DNA from: Pseudoalteromonas sp. R3
GTDB taxonomy: Bacteria > Pseudomonadota > Gammaproteobacteria > Enterobacterales > Alteromonadaceae
DNA length: 64,000 bases
Assembly (NCBI RefSeq): GCF_004014715.1
Contig: NZ_CP034834.1
Location: 682,001-746,000, forward strand
Direction of reading: 5' to 3'
Made by a program: the position numbers and the translations under genes. This document shows, piece after piece, positions 33,661 through 54,327 of this stretch. Position 1 is the first letter of the stretch, and each line of letters begins with the position of its first letter. The notes below the pieces were generated by a model. It saw nothing but the letters and a program-made list of their open reading frames with translations, did not search any database and had not been told where the DNA came from.

Positions 33661-33692
33661 ACCCCGACAGGCGGGGTCAGGCAACGCCTGTC
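33661..33692 (+). terminator. Two alternative hairpins after the amidohydrolase gene
   Basis: ACCCCG (33661-33666) can pair with CGGGGT (33672-33677), while GACAGGCG (33666-33673) can instead pair with CGCCTGTC (33685-33692). The two stems share bases, so they exclude each other. No T-run follows. Probably a termination or mRNA 3'-end structure. Confidence 0.4.
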
Positions 33693-33832
33693 AGTGGCAA
33701 TAAAAAGTCACAAATGTGTGAGTGTTACACTGACCATCGGTGACACAAAAATGGCTTGGCGGTGGTGCCGCACCACCCACCCGGGGCGTCAATCCTGCGT
33801 CCAGTCCTTTTGCCTCGTTCGACAGTTGCTTT

Positions 33833-34042
33833 ATACCAATTTCACTTAATACCTGTTCAATTTGAAGGAGCAAATATGACGCTAACGGCGTTAAAAATTT
33901 CTCATTTAGAACAACTAAATAGCAAAATTTTTGCCTCGCCTATAGGGATGTAGGTGCCTCAGCGATAGCAGGACGCGGGAGCGGTGTTATCGACCATATT
34001 TTCTCGCCTCAAAATAGAACACTTAATTAAGCAAATTGGTAT
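33833..34042. mobile_element. MITE-like element with terminal inverted repeats
   Basis: A 210-bp element without transposase. The ends ATACCAATTT (33833-33842) and AAATTGGTAT (34033-34042) are perfect inverted repeats, and similarity continues inward for about 39 bp (CTTAAT, TGTTC and an ATTTGA-rich stretch recur in order on both ends). It lies between convergent genes, a usual place for such elements. Inside is a 25-codon ORF with a good ribosome binding site. Target duplications are not clear. The family is inferred; other copies would have to be found elsewhere in the genome. Confidence 0.6.
33876..33953 (+). CDS. 25-codon ORF inside the MITE-like element
   Basis: ATG at 33876 with AAGGAG six bases upstream encodes MTLTALKISHLEQLNSKIFA and five more residues before a TAG. 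The well-placed ribosome binding site is notable, but part of it belongs to the terminal repeat, and the peptide has no recognised features. It may be incidental or may give read-through translation to inserted elements. Confidence 0.25.
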   Translation: MTLTALKISHLEQLNSKIFASPIGM

Positions 34043-41922: not shown

Positions 41923-42348
41923 TCAACGCAGTCTTATTTCTAAGTTCTGATTGTGCTGCGTGATCTGTACTGCCAGCTGCGGAAACTGTGGGATGCCGGC
42001 AAGCAGCTCATTATTGCTAAAACCATAAGGCTCTGTTGGCAAGCCAAAACGATTGCGATTTAGCCGCCCATCGCCATTGAGATCCTGATAAACCATAAAG
42101 CTGTATTGTCCGGGTTCTACATTATGCAGCGTGAGCTCAGGCTGAGTGTCTGACACCTGTTGCTGTGCAACCCGCCAGGCTCGTTGTTGTAAAAATCCTG
42201 CTGCCGAGTCATAGGCTACCAGCTTTAGGGTGCCTGACTGGTGCGCCAGGCCGCTGAACGTAATAGTCAGATCCTGTGCCATTGCACTGGCCGAAAGTGC
42301 ACCAAGTATGCAGGCAATGGCGGTAGTGCGAGTCAGATGTTTAGTCAT
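41923..42348 (-). CDS. Exported DUF2141 protein
   Basis: A 141-residue exported protein. Signal peptide MTKHLTRTTAIACILGALSA and SAMAQ end near residue 25. The mature part has the DUF2141 hallmark YQDLNGDGRLNRNRFGLPTEPYGFSNN, a calcium-loop-like DxNxDG segment. Function unknown; the family is common in marine bacteria and Bacteroidetes and has an immunoglobulin-like fold. The start at 42348 with AGGATAAC is chosen over an upstream ATG eight codons earlier. A Pho-box-like site lies 81 bp upstream. Confidence 0.8.
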   Translation of the reverse strand: MTKHLTRTTAIACILGALSASAMAQDLTITFSGLAHQSGTLKLVAYDSAAGFLQQRAWRVAQQQVSDTQPELTLHNVEPGQYSFMVYQDLNGDGRLNRNRFGLPTEPYGFSNNELLAGIPQFPQLAVQITQHNQNLEIRLR

Positions 42349-44261: not shown

Positions 44262-44462
44262 TCATAGACAGGTAAATATGTTTTGGAAGGAAGGGCAATC
44301 AATTGTTTCGGGCTTACAATAAGATACCGGCTGACACTGAATTGAACGGCAATCTCTGAAATTTGTAACGTAGCCACCCCCAATCTCAGGGGTCTGGTTG
44401 GCAGAAATGTGCGATTTGGCACAGAGCGACTTCATATTTTTTTTGTATAGCTTTAACTTCAT
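44262..44462 (-). CDS. Leader-type cysteine-rich peptide 1
   Basis: A 66-residue peptide. Residues 1-30 are a leader (MKLKLYKKNMKSLCAKSHIS, then ANQTPEIGGG) shared with two tandem neighbours and a distant fourth copy, ending in a Gly-Gly-type cut site. The predicted core (31-66) has five cysteines at 38, 43, 49, 56 and 65 and ends CL; the last four keep C-x5-C-x6-C as in the neighbours, with longer spacing before the final Cys. One leader residue is an extra Cys (14), unlike the others. CAAAGGA precedes the ATG. Leader and core layout suggests a secreted, processed natural product or disulfide-rich bacteriocin. No modifying enzyme is nearby. Third and last of the tandem array. Confidence 0.7.
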   Translation of the reverse strand: MKLKLYKKNMKSLCAKSHISANQTPEIGGGYVTNFRDCRSIQCQPVSYCKPETIDCPSFQNIFTCL

Positions 44463-44511
44463 ATTTCTGTCCTTTGCTCCGTCATTTGACGTGATTTACA
44501 AGTCCTGTATC

Positions 44512-44543
44512 ACTGCACAGTGACACCTTTATCACTGTGCAGT
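44512..44543. repeat. Intercistronic 12-bp hairpin in the peptide array
   Basis: ACTGCACAGTGA (44512-44523) and its exact complement (44532-44543), 8-base loop, 20 bp after the stop of peptide 2 and 50 bp before the start of peptide 1. No T-run on the minus strand, so it is more likely an attenuator or RNA-stability element tuning expression between peptides than a full terminator. Confidence 0.6.
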
Positions 44544-44562
44544 TAGTCTTACAATGCCAAAA

Positions 44563-44763
44563 TTAAAGACATTGAATGGTTTGGCATAGTGGGCCATCTG
44601 AGGCACATCCGTAGCTCTCGGTACAGCCACCTCTGCGTGTATCACAACGTAAAGAACAGGCCGCACGACTGCCTGCACCGGCGACTTCAGGGGTCTGATT
44701 GGCAGCAATTTGCGAATTCGCTGAGAGTGATTTCATATGTTTTTTATTAAGCTTAAGTTTCAT
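44563..44763 (-). CDS. Leader-type cysteine-rich peptide 2
   Basis: A 66-residue paralogue. The leader (MKLKLNKKHMKSLSANSQIA, ANQTPEVAGA) ends in GA rather than GG before a core with six cysteines (36, 40, 47, 53, 60, 65) spaced C-x3-C-x6-C-x5-C-x6-C-x4-C and a terminal Leu, the same spacing as peptide 3. The core is basic (RRGG, SLRC) and also has Ser/Thr residues that could be dehydrated if a lanthionine enzyme exists. AAAGGTACTG precedes the ATG, matching the untranslated region of peptide 3, so duplication included the 5' region. Confidence 0.75.
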   Translation of the reverse strand: MKLKLNKKHMKSLSANSQIAANQTPEVAGAGSRAACSLRCDTRRGGCTESYGCASDGPLCQTIQCL

Positions 44764-44852
44764 TTTTCAGTACCTTTAATGTGTGATAGAGGTAATTAAC
44801 CTCTGATCCTGTTGAGTTAAAAATTGTAGTGTTATACCTGTAAAAGCAGTGC

Positions 44853-45059
44853 TTACAGACAGGTCACTGTCGCACAGTTAGGGCCTTCGGATTTGCACCC
44901 ATAACTGAGATCGCAGTTTGCTTTGTATGAGTCGCAAGCCAAAGTGCAGCCGCCGCCCCGCGTATAATAACCACCGGCAATCTCAGGTGTCTGGTTGGCA
45001 GAAATGTGAGAATTGACAGAGAGCGCCTTCATATTTTTTTTGTTTAGTTGTAGCTTCAT
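44853..45059 (-). CDS. Leader-type cysteine-rich peptide 3
   Basis: A 68-residue peptide, first in the tandem array on the minus strand. Leader MKLQLNKKNMKALSVNSHIS, ANQTPEIAGG with Gly-Gly at 29-30; core from 31 has six cysteines (38, 42, 49, 55, 62, 67) in the pattern C-x3-C-x6-C-x5-C-x6-C-x4-C, ending CL, identical in spacing to peptide 2. AAAGGTACT precedes the ATG. The pattern suits three disulfides or thioether rings. The promoter must lie in the 274-bp gap shared with the divergent hybrid sensor gene. Confidence 0.75.
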   Translation of the reverse strand: MKLQLNKKNMKALSVNSHISANQTPEIAGGYYTRGGGCTLACDSYKANCDLSYGCKSEGPNCATVTCL

Positions 45060-45250
45060 TTTTTAGTACCTTTGATAAGTAACTCGGTAAAGTTAGTTAT
45101 TGTTCCTTCACTCAAGTCGATATTGATGCTTCCATGCCCTTTTTATGCACATTCTGAATTATTGATGCACTCATACTTGTTTGCATTTCATCAGGTAATG
45201 CGGCCCCTTACTCCGTTGGCAACACTGTAATCGTCTACCGTACAAAAAAG

Positions 45251-45333: not shown

Positions 45334-48300
45334 ATGGTAAGGAAATTATCTTTTGTGTTTTTTCTATGTATGAGCTTGCTTGTGCAAGCGACAAGCCTAA
45401 CGCCGGTACACACTAAAGTTCAGGATCCAGTTGTTCGGCATATCGCTGATTTTGAAAACCGTGCAATAGGAGAGGTGACTGCACTTCATCAAGATAAATA
45501 TGGCTTTTTATGGCTCGGAACCACCACAGGCCTGTATCGTTATGATGGCACAATATTGCGCCATTATGACACTACAACAGTGCCGTCACTGGCGCATAAT
45601 TTGGTACTTGATATTGTTGAAACTGCCGATGCACTGTGGTTGACAACCTATGGCGGTGGACTACATAAGTACGACTTTGCTAAAGACACAATCAAAATAT
45701 TTGGCCCTAAACATGACAACTTTTCTGAGCAACAGCTTTGGTTTGCTGAGCTGGCAGATTCTGAGCTGTATATTGGAGGACGAGACGGAGGGCATTTATT
45801 TGACGTGCAATCAGAAACCCAACTCACATTACCCGAAAAATTGCGGCATACGCTCTCACAGAAGAACATCTGGCGCTATTTAAAGGATAAGCGGGGTGAT
45901 CTTTGGATAGCGACCTTATCTGAAGGCCTGTATCGCTATATTTATGCCACGGATGAGTTACGGCATTATCCCGGGCAAAATGGCAATGACGGACCTGCTG
46001 ACAATATTGTCCGTGCATTGCAATTGGATGCTCAAGGGCGGCTTTGGATAGGCACAGATAATGGTCTTAGCGTCATGAACACAGACACTGAGCAGTTCCA
46101 GCACTTTCTCTATAACCCGGATGAGCCTGATGCACCAGATAGTTTGGCTGCAAACACCATCTGGGCGTTACATTTAGATAGCCAACAACGTTTATGGGTG
46201 GGCGCGCGCTCAACCAATTTAGGGTTGTCAATCTTAGATACCAAAACCTTAACCTGGCAAAATATGGGACTTGGCGAATCTGGCGGGCTGAGTAACCTCA
46301 CCATCAGCGTGATTGAAGAAGATGATCAGGGCAATATTTGGCTGGGTACCCACACTGGGCTTTATCAGATCCCAGCCTCTGCACTCGCTTTTTCAGTGCT
46401 CTCACTCCAGCAAGGGTCAAATAACGTAACATGCACTTATCTGGATAGTCGTGGTGTTTTATGGGTGGCTACCGACACAGGTATCTATCAACGCAAAAAT
46501 GGGAAACTGTTTCATGTGTCTTCGATTGTCGGTGTCAATACGTTTGTAGAAGCATCTGATGGTAACATTTGGGCGACCTCCATTAACCGGGGACTGGTCA
46601 ATCTGAGTCCGGAGGGGAAGTTGTTACATCACTTCTTGAAAGGGGATGCATACAATACCGCAACTAGTAACTTTATAACGGTTGCTGCTGATGGAGGGGC
46701 TGTCTGGGCGGGCGTCTATAACGCGTCAGAAGGGATTGGCTTGATGAAGCTTGATTTGGCCACTCTGGAGTCTGAGTGGTTCAACACCAACTCACCCGTT
46801 CGGCAAATTGCTGTGCTCAATAACAAGCTATTACTGGGGCATAATAACTCTCTTCCCAGCATATTCGATAAAAACGCTGGCACGGTAACCGAGCTTAGCC
46901 TCGATAACGATGAAGTAACAGACAGTATGGCTATTATGGATATGCATATTATCGATGAACGTTATACCTGGATCGCTTCGCATTACCGTGGTTTATGGTT
47001 AGCTGATAGCGAGCGACATACGCTTACCCAGGTTTCATCTATTTCAAATAGTGAGATTTGGGCAATGTGGCAGACAAACGATTCGTTGTGGCTAGCCTCA
47101 ACCGACGGCCTCTTAGAGTTGGAGGCGGATCACCACACTATGAAAGTTAATTTAGTGCGTCGCTTGGATGCACAGCATGGTTTGCCAAACAGCAACTTCA
47201 ATGCTCACGGGGCGACGTTCGACAAACAAACGGGGATGGTTTATTTGGGGACGTTGGAAGGATTAGTGCTCTTTGACATGGCGAAAATGCACTCTGCCTC
47301 ATCCACCAAACTTCCATGGATGACTCGATTCAGTATCATCAATCAATCTGTGAGTGTAGGCTCTTCCCCTGCTGAATCAGCACTTTCTCGGGCAATAGAA
47401 TTAACCGAATCCATCACTTTAGGGTACGAGGATTATGTTTTTTCATTGGATTTCGCGACTCCCGATTTCGTTGAAGCGCAAAGCCTGGAGTATGCATACA
47501 AGTTAGAAGGCCTTGATACAAAATGGTTTTATACCGACAGTACGAGCCGCAAAGCTACCTACACTACCTTACCTGCCGGAAAATATCGTTTTTTGGTAAA
47601 AAGTAAACGTCGGGACGAGGATTGGCCAGACACATATCGCGCGTTAGATATCGAGATTTTGCCCCCCTGGTGGCACACTTGGCAGGCTTATTTGGCGTAT
47701 GGCGTTATATATTTAATCTTAATGTGGTTATTTGTCCGTCACCGTAGTCAACGTTTGAAGCAGCAAGCACGAGCTCTGCAACAGGCCGTTGAACTAAAAA
47801 CTGCGGAACTGAATGAACAAAATGATGAGCTTAAACAAAACCAGCAAACTATTGCTGCCTTACTCCAGCAACGTACGACTTTTTTTACCAATGTGTCTCA
47901 TGAGTTGAGGACACCATTGTCGTTGTTGAGCATTCCTTTAGAGCACTTGCAGCGTCAACATACTCAGGGTGAGTCGGCCTATCTGACCGGCGTAATGAGC
48001 AAAAGCCTTGCACAATTGCGTCGTCTGGTAGAGCAACTGATGACTCTGGCACGATTGGACAGTCAGGTAGAGCAGAGCCAAACTTCAGTCTCCACTGTGC
48101 AGGTGTGTGCCGAGTTATACGCGGTTTTTAATCCTTTGTGTGAGCAGAGAAACATTCGGCTGTCGTTGTCTGATATTCCGGATATGCATCTGAGTTTAAT
48201 TCCTGAAACTTTGCAGACTTGCCTGGCGAACCTGTTGTCCAATGCCGTTAAGTACAGCTTTGATGGTGGAGATGTGCGACTGACCGTATCCATGCACAAT

Positions 48301-49449
48301 ATGGATGTACATTTTTGTGTGCAAGATCAGGGTTGTGGTATAGCTGCGCAGGATATCCCTAAGATTTTTGAACGCTTTAGTAGAGCTGGCAGTGTGGCAC
48401 AACAGGGTCAGGTTACAGGCTCCGGGATTGGGCTTACAGTCGTTAAAGAGTTAGCGCTTGCCAATGGAGGTGATATTCGCTGTACCAGTGAGCTGGGCAA
48501 GGGGAGTACATTCACACTGACACTACCGGCATCATCTGTGGTAGCCGCAGGCGTTGACGCTGCGCAGGCTGAGCACCAGCCGTTATTATTAGAAGCAGGT
48601 ATTTTGGAGCAAAGTGAACCTGTGCTGCTCACGCCAAATGAACCAACAGGACAAACCAAACCGCTGTTGCTGGTAATTGATGACAATGTGGAGCTGCGTG
48701 AGTTACTGTCTTTTTCACTGAGTGAAGCTTATACAATTGAAACAGCGCAAAGTGGTCAGCAAGGGATAGACATGGCATTGCAATTATTACCGGACCTGGT
48801 CATCTGTGATCTAATGATGCCGGATATTGACGGTTTTGATGTGACGCAGCAGTTACGAGAGCATGCATTAACCAGCCACATTCCTATTATTATGCTAACC
48901 GCCAAGAGTGAAACGCAAAGTCGTTTAAAAGGCTGGCAACAGCGGGTAGATGACTATATAGCCAAGCCATTTAATCTCACTGAGTTAACCATGCGAATTG
49001 ATAATCTGTTGGCAATCCGTCAACTGATCCGCAAGCGACTGGATACTTTGGTTGGACGTAATCTGGCGTGTGCTTCTGCAGAAGCTTCTTTTTGTGACAG
49101 AGATAAGCAATTTTTACAGCGCTTTGAAGATTTGGTAAGGCAGCACTATCAGGAGCCTGATTTTAATCGCTCTTTCGCAGCCAAAATATTGGCTGTTAGT
49201 GAGCGCCAACTTAATAGAAAGCTGTCAGCATTGTTGGACCATAATTTTGCAGACTATCTCAGACGTTATCGTGTTCAACAAGCCGCGACTTTTTTGCGGC
49301 AGGGCACAGATACCCCCATCAGCCATATTTGTGAGCTGGTTGGGTTTGCTTCTAGTAGTTATCTGGCAAGTTGTTTCAAAGCTGAATTCGGTGTTTCCAT
49401 GCGTGAATATCGGCAAAAACACTCTTCACCAGAAGCGGAGCCTTTGTAA
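45334..49449 (+). CDS. Hybrid two-component sensor with propeller, kinase, receiver and AraC output
   Basis: A 1371-residue one-protein two-component system of the type best known from Bacteroides. Signal peptide (1-20); a long periplasmic domain of repeated LWLGTxxGLYRYD-type propeller blades (about 40-690); a Y_Y_Y domain (about 690-775); a span near 785-805; coiled coil; HisKA with SHELRTPLS (His856); HATPase with GSGIGLTVV; a receiver with phospho-acceptor Asp1159 (VICDLMMPDIDG); and a C-terminal AraC helix-turn-helix (about 1275-1371). It would sense a periplasmic ligand and bind DNA itself. It is divergent from the peptide array and upstream of the convergent phytase gene; targets are inferred from proximity. 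Confidence 0.9.
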   Translation: MVRKLSFVFFLCMSLLVQATSLTPVHTKVQDPVVRHIADFENRAIGEVTALHQDKYGFLWLGTTTGLYRYDGTILRHYDTTTVPSLAHNLVLDIVETADALWLTTYGGGLHKYDFAKDTIKIFGPKHDNFSEQQLWFAELADSELYIGGRDGGHLFDVQSETQLTLPEKLRHTLSQKNIWRYLKDKRGDLWIATLSEGLYRYIYATDELRHYPGQNGNDGPADNIVRALQLDAQGRLWIGTDNGLSVMNTDTEQFQHFLYNPDEPDAPDSLAANTIWALHLDSQQRLWVGARSTNLGLSILDTKTLTWQNMGLGESGGLSNLTISVIEEDDQGNIWLGTHTGLYQIPASALAFSVLSLQQGSNNVTCTYLDSRGVLWVATDTGIYQRKNGKLFHVSSIVGVNTFVEASDGNIWATSINRGLVNLSPEGKLLHHFLKGDAYNTATSNFITVAADGGAVWAGVYNASEGIGLMKLDLATLESEWFNTNSPVRQIAVLNNKLLLGHNNSLPSIFDKNAGTVTELSLDNDEVTDSMAIMDMHIIDERYTWIASHYRGLWLADSERHTLTQVSSISNSEIWAMWQTNDSLWLASTDGLLELEADHHTMKVNLVRRLDAQHGLPNSNFNAHGATFDKQTGMVYLGTLEGLVLFDMAKMHSASSTKLPWMTRFSIINQSVSVGSSPAESALSRAIELTESITLGYEDYVFSLDFATPDFVEAQSLEYAYKLEGLDTKWFYTDSTSRKATYTTLPAGKYRFLVKSKRRDEDWPDTYRALDIEILPPWWHTWQAYLAYGVIYLILMWLFVRHRSQRLKQQARALQQAVELKTAELNEQNDELKQNQQTIAALLQQRTTFFTNVSHELRTPLSLLSIPLEHLQRQHTQGESAYLTGVMSKSLAQLRRLVEQLMTLARLDSQVEQSQTSVSTVQVCAELYAVFNPLCEQRNIRLSLSDIPDMHLSLIPETLQTCLANLLSNAVKYSFDGGDVRLTVSMHNMDVHFCVQDQGCGIAAQDIPKIFERFSRAGSVAQQGQVTGSGIGLTVVKELALANGGDIRCTSELGKGSTFTLTLPASSVVAAGVDAAQAEHQPLLLEAGILEQSEPVLLTPNEPTGQTKPLLLVIDDNVELRELLSFSLSEAYTIETAQSGQQGIDMALQLLPDLVICDLMMPDIDGFDVTQQLREHALTSHIPIIMLTAKSETQSRLKGWQQRVDDYIAKPFNLTELTMRIDNLLAIRQLIRKRLDTLVGRNLACASAEASFCDRDKQFLQRFEDLVRQHYQEPDFNRSFAAKILAVSERQLNRKLSALLDHNFADYLRRYRVQQAATFLRQGTDTPISHICELVGFASSSYLASCFKAEFGVSMREYRQKHSSPEAEPL

Positions 49450-53997: not shown

Positions 53998-54171
53998 TCA
54001 GACCGGGCAGCGTTTCGTCCCTTCGCAGTTCGACCGGGTGTCAATACAAACCCAAAATGATTCATCGATTACACGGCCACCCCCTATCTGAGGTGTCTCT
54101 TGAGCGCGAATAATCGTTGCTGGATTAACAGATAGAGATTTAATGGATTTTTTATTCAAAGTCACTTTCAT
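53998..54171 (-). CDS. Leader-type cysteine-rich peptide 4 (distant copy)
   Basis: A 57-residue relative of the tandem peptides. The leader MKVTLNKKSIKSLSVNPATI, IRAQETPQIGGG keeps the LNKKxxKSLSxN and TPxIGGG features; the shorter core has three cysteines (42, 49, 55) with the same C-x6-C-x5-C spacing as the middle of peptides 2 and 3, and a DTR stretch also seen in peptide 2. The ATG at 54171 has AAAAAGGA eight bases upstream; the ATG at 54180 has no room for a binding site. An odd cysteine number suggests one free or intermolecular Cys. Confidence 0.65.
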   Translation of the reverse strand: MKVTLNKKSIKSLSVNPATIIRAQETPQIGGGRVIDESFWVCIDTRSNCEGTKRCPV

Positions 54172-54327
54172 AGTTAACATCCTTTTTGTTGTGGAAGTAG
54201 CAGGTTGATTCTTTTCTTTTCAAATGTCAACGGTGTGTTGCTATGTAATTATTGTGTAATGTTCTTTCGTTGGAGCTGAAACTAGTCTCATTACTGCCAT
54301 AAGGCAAAATGAACAGAGGACATGGTT

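Follow-up and report, generated by a model that had tools for sequence, protein, structure and literature searches.

In Pseudoalteromonas, PciA of P. citrea (pci, DSM 8771) is a class I lanthipeptide precursor that has been modified in E. coli, and pci is described, in the sections cited, as a biosynthetic gene cluster (PMC9993889). For P. viridis BBR56, a class I lanthipeptide cluster is named at 1,199,639–1,224,010; in the part of that paper cited, the words "precursor" and "leader" are absent (PMC11015633). The thalassomonasins and viridisins (of Thalassomonas) are marine gammaproteobacterial class I lanthipeptides with, according to the sections cited, a single cluster holding two or three precursors, two to four Cys per core, and several ring patterns determined; the thalassomonasin leaders have 29 residues and carry class I motifs (PMC11433236).

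A different organization is described for the prochlorosins, with ProcM, and for SyncM. There, one synthetase goes with tens of precursors (29 and 79) whose leader is conserved and whose cores are diverse, and many prochlorosin genes are far from their LanM, again in the parts of the papers cited (PMC12328550; PMC7268733). One large survey is, in its cited section, confined to seven genes on either side of the enzyme gene (PMC7268733). Among the open-licence PMC papers listed by our searches, none describes dispersed class I precursors, although an earlier description is possible.

Three tandem genes with a shared leader

The window analyzed here is the whole stretch of 64,000 nucleotides from Pseudoalteromonas sp. 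R3. It contains three consecutive genes, called the trio below, with a common leader and different cores:

44853..45059, minus strand: putative precursor peptide 1, 68 amino acids; leader, residues 1–30 (MKLQLNKKNMKALSVNSHISANQTPEIAGG); core, residues 31–68, with six Cys; E = 3.3e-41 against the trio profile
45060..45075, minus strand: ribosome-binding-site region of peptide 1
44563..44763, minus strand: putative precursor peptide 2, 66 amino acids; AGA closes the leader at residue 30; core of 36 amino acids with six Cys; E = 5.8e-37
44262..44462, minus strand: putative precursor peptide 3, 66 amino acids; leader LYKKNMKSLCAKS, somewhat off the motif; core of 36 amino acids with five Cys; E = 2.4e-33

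The coordinates, the strand (minus for all), and the lengths (66, 66, and 68 amino acids) are those of the initial annotation. In the alignment, the leaders share MKL-x-L-x-KK-x-MK-x-L...ANQTPE-[IV]-x-G-[GA] over 30 residues, ending in GG or GA, and five Cys columns of the cores are invariant in all three peptides. A shared leader had been described from the start as nearly identical; the sharing stands, and one of the three, peptide 3, deviates from the motif that was quoted. The DNA is similar over the part coding for the leader and about 20 nt upstream, with the ribosome-binding site, and diverges farther upstream. The genes look like duplicates, as had been proposed; the likeness claimed for the upstream regions applies to those 20 nt or so. 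Against Pfam, NCBIfam, and PHROGs, the trio gives no match. There is no Rfam match between positions 42000 and 47000 of the window, and the promoter and terminator scan is not above chance.

Adjoining the trio, at 45334–49449 of the window, is a hybrid two-component sensor-regulator of 1371 amino acids (Reg_prop, Y_Y_Y, HisKA, HATPase, receiver, and AraC). The trio stretch (3.1 kb) is present, 98% identical, in only one of 10 relatives (G054). For the nine others, the yebC part alone gives a long match and the remaining matches are short, so that neither the trio nor the start of the sensor-regulator has a DNA-level counterpart there. Judged from these DNA matches, the trio is an accessory element. 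Since the two lack a match in the same nine relatives, one joint insertion is possible, and the trio and the adjoining sensor-regulator may have been acquired together. In the G054 copy of peptide 3, a run of As in the leader differs in length by two bases and the leader is, therefore, in a different frame.

The leader family across the genome

In the window's own genome (5.82 Mb, two contigs, C1 and C2), the trio profile gives 56 matches at E ≤ 10 and 44 at E ≤ 0.01, the trio among them; the trio is far above chance. An iterated search of the stretches around these first-pass matches yields at least 61 ORFs (18 on C1 and 43 on C2), a lower bound because the search was made in those stretches. 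The 61 ORFs occupy 43 places more than 5 kb apart, on both replicons. Sixty of them could be split into leader and core (one is unparsed), and 59 were extracted. A late check of the enzyme region described below adds two Cys-free members (L052:18778-18915 and L054:11214-11384). With the leader profile, the count in the genome is 63 at E ≤ 0.01. The earlier description of precursors made of a leader and a variable Cys-rich core holds. Two further members, neither of them noted in the initial annotation, are in the window:

53998..54180, minus strand: further dispersed member, 60 amino acids; leader MKVTLNKKSIKSLSVNPATIIRAQETPQIGGG, core RVIDESFWVCIDTRSNCEGTKRCPV; identical core in the relative G094
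33691..33873, minus strand: weak further member, 60 amino acids; TTG start in this reading; atypical leader N terminus; GG/GA site and Cys core; identical core in G094

A ribosome-binding site is found upstream of 56 of the 59 extracted members, where 500 control draws average 4.0 and never exceed 11. No overlap with an ORF of 150 amino acids or more is seen for any of the 59. Among the upstream k-mers of these members, the ribosome-binding site tops the list, followed by AT-rich words such as TAATTAAA. We did not observe recurring neighbor genes of the dispersed members: among 168 neighbor proteins, the biggest similarity group has four, the sensor-regulator of the trio included.

A protein search with the trio alone returns two proteins. 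With a 31-row alignment, 70 proteins are returned, mostly without a name or as "hypothetical protein," with a few UniRef entries called "Class I lanthipeptide" or "Lantibiotic"; a protein of Thalassomonas viridans (P0007) also matches the leader family. None of the precursors scanned matches Pfam or PHROGs or exceeds an NCBIfam cut-off, and seven of 10 are without any NCBIfam match. The other three, all enzyme-adjacent, are weakly similar to the NCBIfam class I lanthipeptide leaders NF038158 and NF038153 (E = 0.0027, 0.16, and 0.33, below the curated cut-offs), the best being one precursor against NF038158 (E = 0.0027). A phage origin of the family is unsupported, with no PHROGs match in the seven members scanned.

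Class I enzyme genes on the other replicon

At 4.415–4.424 Mb of C2, an operon-like row encodes LanB (1049 amino acids), LanC (412 amino acids), a C39-ABC exporter (714 amino acids), and HlyD (414 amino acids), all confirmed with Pfam. In LanB, a homolog of NisB, the glutamylation and elimination domains are both present (PF04738, 3.7e-133; PF14028, 6.5e-61), and the alignment shows conservation over the active-site stretches of NisB. In LanC (PF05147, E = 6.5e-40; NisC match, E = 2.2e-08), LanC-like proteins of solved structure align over the WCYG and CHG stretches. The exporter is homologous to bacteriocin transporters of known structure, and the active-site stretches of C39 exporters are conserved. 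We take the aligned stretches of LanB and of the exporter to be catalytic sites and the WCYG and CHG residues of LanC to be zinc ligands. The set is apparently intact, and the peptides cannot be called "without known modifying enzymes," as they had been, once the other replicon is considered.

The window itself is indeed free of LanB, LanC, LanM, and C39 genes, as the initial annotation had it. The matches in the whole genome (three C39 peptidase domains, three LanC-like domains, and one LanB) are all on C2, and LanM is absent from the window because there is no LanC-like match there. The PF05147 matches of the genome are LanC, a stand-alone LanC-like protein, and LanKC, all of which stay below the NCBIfam LanM cut-off. 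The stand-alone protein is at L055:9377-10615 (C2:1119377-1120615), where there is no LanB; by eye, its surroundings contain ATP-grasp ligase-like genes, an aminotransferase, and efflux proteins.

The stretch L051–L054 (C2:4.415–4.470 Mb), mostly between glmU and the atp operon, is a dense RiPP region. It also holds two radical SAM proteins, an ATP-grasp maturase-like ligase, LanKC with an ABC transporter, and two more C39 exporters, one of which, the third of the region, is split over two ORFs. The leader peptide closest to LanB is about 20 kb off and Cys-free (L052:18778-18915); the closest Cys-bearing one found is about 30 kb away. At L044:15927-16648, four tandem, closely similar leader peptides have Cys-free cores (HSLPKDSIVRPTGWP and close variants), about 2–5 kb from the second C39 exporter and HlyD, and four weaker family members are about 3–4 kb from the ATP-grasp gene. 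An ORF with 15 perfect repeats of the unit SANQPISQ is present at L044:7624-8031.

Composition and conservation of the cores

The 60 cores pooled contain 11.5% Cys, 10.7% Thr, and 7.7% Ser. Among the 59 extracted members, 53 have Cys, and Ser/Thr are at least as numerous as Cys in 51 of these 53. Six of the 60 split cores are Cys-free; these six and the two members found late cannot, therefore, form lanthionine. In a dereplicated set (53 cores, 197 Cys) compared with shuffles, Ser/Thr occur at Cys-3 in 69 cases (35.0 expected) and at Cys+2 in 71 (36.5 expected), with z near 7. The excess at Cys-5 is weaker (50 vs. 32.5), and there is depletion at +1 and at +5 to +7. With three genomes pooled and dereplicated (82 cores), the values are 82 versus 48.3 at Cys-3 and 98 versus 50.0 at Cys+2. 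The number of Cys is odd in 31 of the 53 Cys-containing cores, and 13 of the 53 are without both [ST]xxC and CxS/T.

Orthologs were compared with two relatives, and omega comes only from pairs with a core identity of at least 0.6, a filter that lowers the omega of the core. Against G094, 38 of 46 reciprocal-best pairs are retained, with so filtered an omega of 0.085 for the leader and 0.082 for the core (core bootstrap 0.03–0.14); all aligned Cys are kept (134/134). An identical core with a changed leader occurs in 15 of the pairs with G094, and the reverse in eight. Against G007, 21 of 26 pairs are retained, with omega values, under the same filter, of 0.104 (leader) and 0.083 (core) and with 61 of 61 Cys kept; the core is identical and the leader changed in three pairs, and the reverse occurs in one. 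The pairs set aside (8/46 with G094 and 5/26 with G007) have core identities of 0.15–0.53 and leader identities of 0.45–0.97. The dN of core and leader do not differ significantly (the difference spans zero), and the cores are not more conserved than the leaders.

Retained orthologous cores are under purifying selection. Neutral drift, which according to the initial annotation would have argued against a functional family, is not seen in them (omega 0.08, with the strongly diverged pairs left out). The cores vary among paralogs, yet they are held in most of the orthologs found. A few pairs suggest core swapping beneath a kept leader; in two of them, L013 (with G007) and L014 (with G094), the leader is 0.76–0.77 identical and the core only 0.23–0.24.

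Co-occurrence of the leader family and LanB

In a sample of 108 genomes of the same genus, a 44-row leader profile matches 52 genomes and a LanB protein search 51. The leader family is present in all 51 LanB-positive genomes versus one of the 57 LanB-negative genomes (G095, with a single leader match at E = 0.0057), and LanB occurs without the leader in none of the 108. Fisher's test gives 2.5e-30 with the genomes treated as unrelated, that is, with relatedness ignored. The 51 genomes contain at least 1,364 leader matches, with a median of at least 22 and a maximum of at least 75.

The wider sample has 395 genomes of the family, with 32 counted as the own genus and 363 as other genera. Leaders occur in 34 and LanB in 37, and all 34 are within the 37. 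In other genera, all 21 leader-positive genomes, spread over 10 genera, are LanB-positive, again with relatedness ignored. The three genomes with LanB but without the leader have distant LanBs (29%–37% identity). At the level of the order, leader matches occur in five of 394 genomes, four of them from the same family. Copy numbers per genome in the family and order surveys are lower bounds. In genus g14 (G120, G167, G200, and G228), with LanB at 46%–47% identity, leader copies are likewise numerous and dispersed (14 in G120 and at least 20 in each of the others), which makes it a second such lineage. In G106, LanB is at C1:1209642-1212788 and there are 30 leader matches; this LanB position agrees with the region named for P. 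viridis BBR56, and G106 may be that strain. In G146 (C229), LanB is matched in four pieces, of which two contain an internal stop, beside a single leader match, and the system looks to be decaying.

Exporters show another distribution. A C39-exporter homolog at E ≤ 1e-100 is found in 66 of the 108 same-genus genomes: all 51 LanB-positive ones and 15 that are LanB-negative. Leaders are missing from all 15, even from G028, whose exporter is 82% identical. G001 and G016 show the converse, with LanB and leaders present and an exporter only 61% identical. The leader family follows LanB rather than C39 exporters. The search of other genomes with a leader profile, suggested at the outset, thus finds the family in 52 of the 108 same-genus genomes and in 21 of other genera, and the view of an "undescribed system" gives way to a family that follows LanB almost perfectly over the 108 genomes and the wider family sample.

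LanB loci in relatives

Twenty of the 51 LanB-positive genomes were picked, not at random, for a comparison of loci. A same-leader precursor is present in the LanB locus of 13 of these chosen relatives, in 12 within the LanBC/exporter row and in one (L105) beyond glmU; the expectation of an enzyme or exporter recurring at some loci is borne out in these 13 and, like the other checks suggested at the outset, speaks for a functional family. The other seven chosen loci are without a local precursor. The low-copy genomes G070 and G061 resemble ordinary lanthipeptide clusters. In a second set of 37 named loci, which shares some genomes with the first, a precursor is within 6 kb of LanB in 12; these include P. 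flavipulchra, P. piscicida, P. phenolica, P. denitrificans, P. peptidolytica, and Colwellia MAGs. In the loci of P. rubra (0/3) and P. luteoviolacea (0/9), no precursor is within 6 kb of LanB. The genome studied here is close to P. rubra by its LanB (96% to S2676 and S2599).

Two loci, L089 (G001) and L088 (G016), have an ATP-grasp gene near LanB, with two and one leader copies, respectively; the only C39 exporter of these genomes is a distant one outside the locus. In L089, LanC was not found within the fetched stretch; in L088, the local precursor has no Cys in its core.

Proposed maturation and alternative explanations

The trio very probably encodes class I lanthipeptide precursors (LanA) on which enzymes act in trans, with a chemistry that we infer from the enzymes. 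Each gene would have a ribosome-binding site of its own for translation. The single LanB of the other replicon would recognize the conserved leader (MKLxLxKKxxKxLS...L...TPxVAGG) and dehydrate Ser/Thr of the core via glutamylation and elimination, and LanC would then join Cys thiols to form (methyl)lanthionine rings. Cleavage behind GG/GA would fall to the C39 peptidase domain of the exporter, and export to this exporter with HlyD. The repertoire may have expanded to about 60 genes through duplication, dispersal, and core replacement: if the leader holds the recognition, copies are free to sit anywhere with any core, which would allow such growth. Most of the roughly 60 members are probably made into ring-containing lanthipeptides by this one distant enzyme set. 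The Cys-free members, above all, may be handled by other enzymes, and LanKC, the ATP-grasp ligase, the two more C39 exporters, and the two radical SAM proteins could serve some members. As to the biological role, antagonism or signaling between strains is our guess.

The GG/GA leaders, the three C39 exporters of the genome, and a window without LanB, LanC-like, or C39 genes would also suit unmodified class II microcin- or bacteriocin-like peptides, with a leader for the C39 exporter alone and with stabilizing disulfides formed outside the cell; so would the 13 Cys-containing cores that lack Ser/Thr at both preferred positions. We regard such peptides as improbable, because Cys is odd in number in 31 of 53 cores, because Ser/Thr are placed nonrandomly around Cys (enriched at Cys-3 and Cys+2), and because the family follows LanB and not C39, the 15 LanB-negative genomes with a C39-exporter homolog having no leaders. 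On these grounds of Cys parity, Ser/Thr placement, and LanB tracking, disulfide-only peptides are rejected as the main reading. Of the two routes of maturation first envisaged, a distant system or simple disulfides, the distant system stands and disulfides alone are disfavored. That the genes are decaying duplicates or spurious ORFs without function is hardly credible. The frame difference within the leader of the G054 copy, the TTG start of one weak member, and the occurrence of the trio at its site in only one of 10 relatives point that way, but the frequency of ribosome-binding sites far exceeds that of the controls, no extracted member overlaps a long ORF, and the retained orthologs keep a core omega of 0.08 and all aligned Cys. 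A pseudogene family, disfavored by the selection result, is rejected.

The leader family could, further, be common to several RiPP enzyme sets, with LanBC acting on most Cys cores and LanKC, the ATP-grasp ligase, radical SAM proteins, or the second exporter on others. LanKC, ATP-grasp, radical SAM, and second exporter are all in one genome region; the four members with HSLPKDSIVRPTGWP-type cores are near the second exporter and HlyD, the four weaker members are near the ATP-grasp gene, and two more Cys-free members are in the enzyme region. By itself, such sharing does not account for the near one-to-one co-occurrence with LanB, and the trio cores are rich in Cys, Ser, and Thr, as are many cores adjoining LanBC in relatives. 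We hold it to be rather unlikely, though worth keeping in mind, and for the trio it is compatible with class I maturation by the distant LanBC.

Comparison with known systems

Beyond the class I reading of the trio, there is a broader picture that we consider likely. One LanB/LanC pair would work as a central factory, with as many as 75 or more unlinked substrates and with the leader as a portable pass. A new core could appear at any site, could replace another one while the leader stays, and would afterwards be maintained by selection. Such a system would parallel the prochlorosins within class I and at a comparable scale, and its repertoire would vary from one close relative to the next. Tens of such peptides are kept by related genomes, and mining near enzyme genes would miss any of the at least 1,364 leader matches (in 51 genomes) that lie beyond such limits. 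The retained cores are strongly conserved, which suggests that single products are of value to the bacterium; their targets can therefore be sought. The question of one enzyme with many substrates, so far a matter of class II LanM, becomes testable in class I, where dehydratase and cyclase are separate.

The pci and psf systems are alike in genus and in the kinds of enzymes; psf, with PsfB, is reportedly a further class I lanthipeptide system of Pseudoalteromonas (Wang et al. 2023). In P. flavipulchra, LanB is 63% identical and same-leader precursors are close by. The pci genes differ in being clustered; in the genome studied here, a 20-kb radius around LanB contains no leader peptide and a radius of about 30 kb none that has Cys, with about 60 located elsewhere. 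The thalassomonasins and viridisins, as far as described in the sections cited above, are similar in being of the marine gammaproteobacterial class I type, but their precursors, two or three to a cluster, contrast with the roughly 60 dispersed ones here. With the leaders of NCBIfam NF038158 and NF038153, the similarity of the three enzyme-adjacent members stays below the curated cut-offs, and the trio gives no match to them.

With the prochlorosins, the family shares many dispersed precursors with a common leader (61 ORFs in 43 places) and one LanB that would act on them. The prochlorosins differ in their class II LanM, their Nif11-type leaders, and their occurrence in cyanobacteria; here, LanB and LanC are separate and the leader is short and K-rich. 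The present family is outside the prochlorosin class, since no LanM was found in the genome. Class I lanthipeptides of Pseudoalteromonas are already known; what appears to be new is the genome-wide dispersal of the precursors, with a median of at least 22 and up to at least 75 matches per genome.
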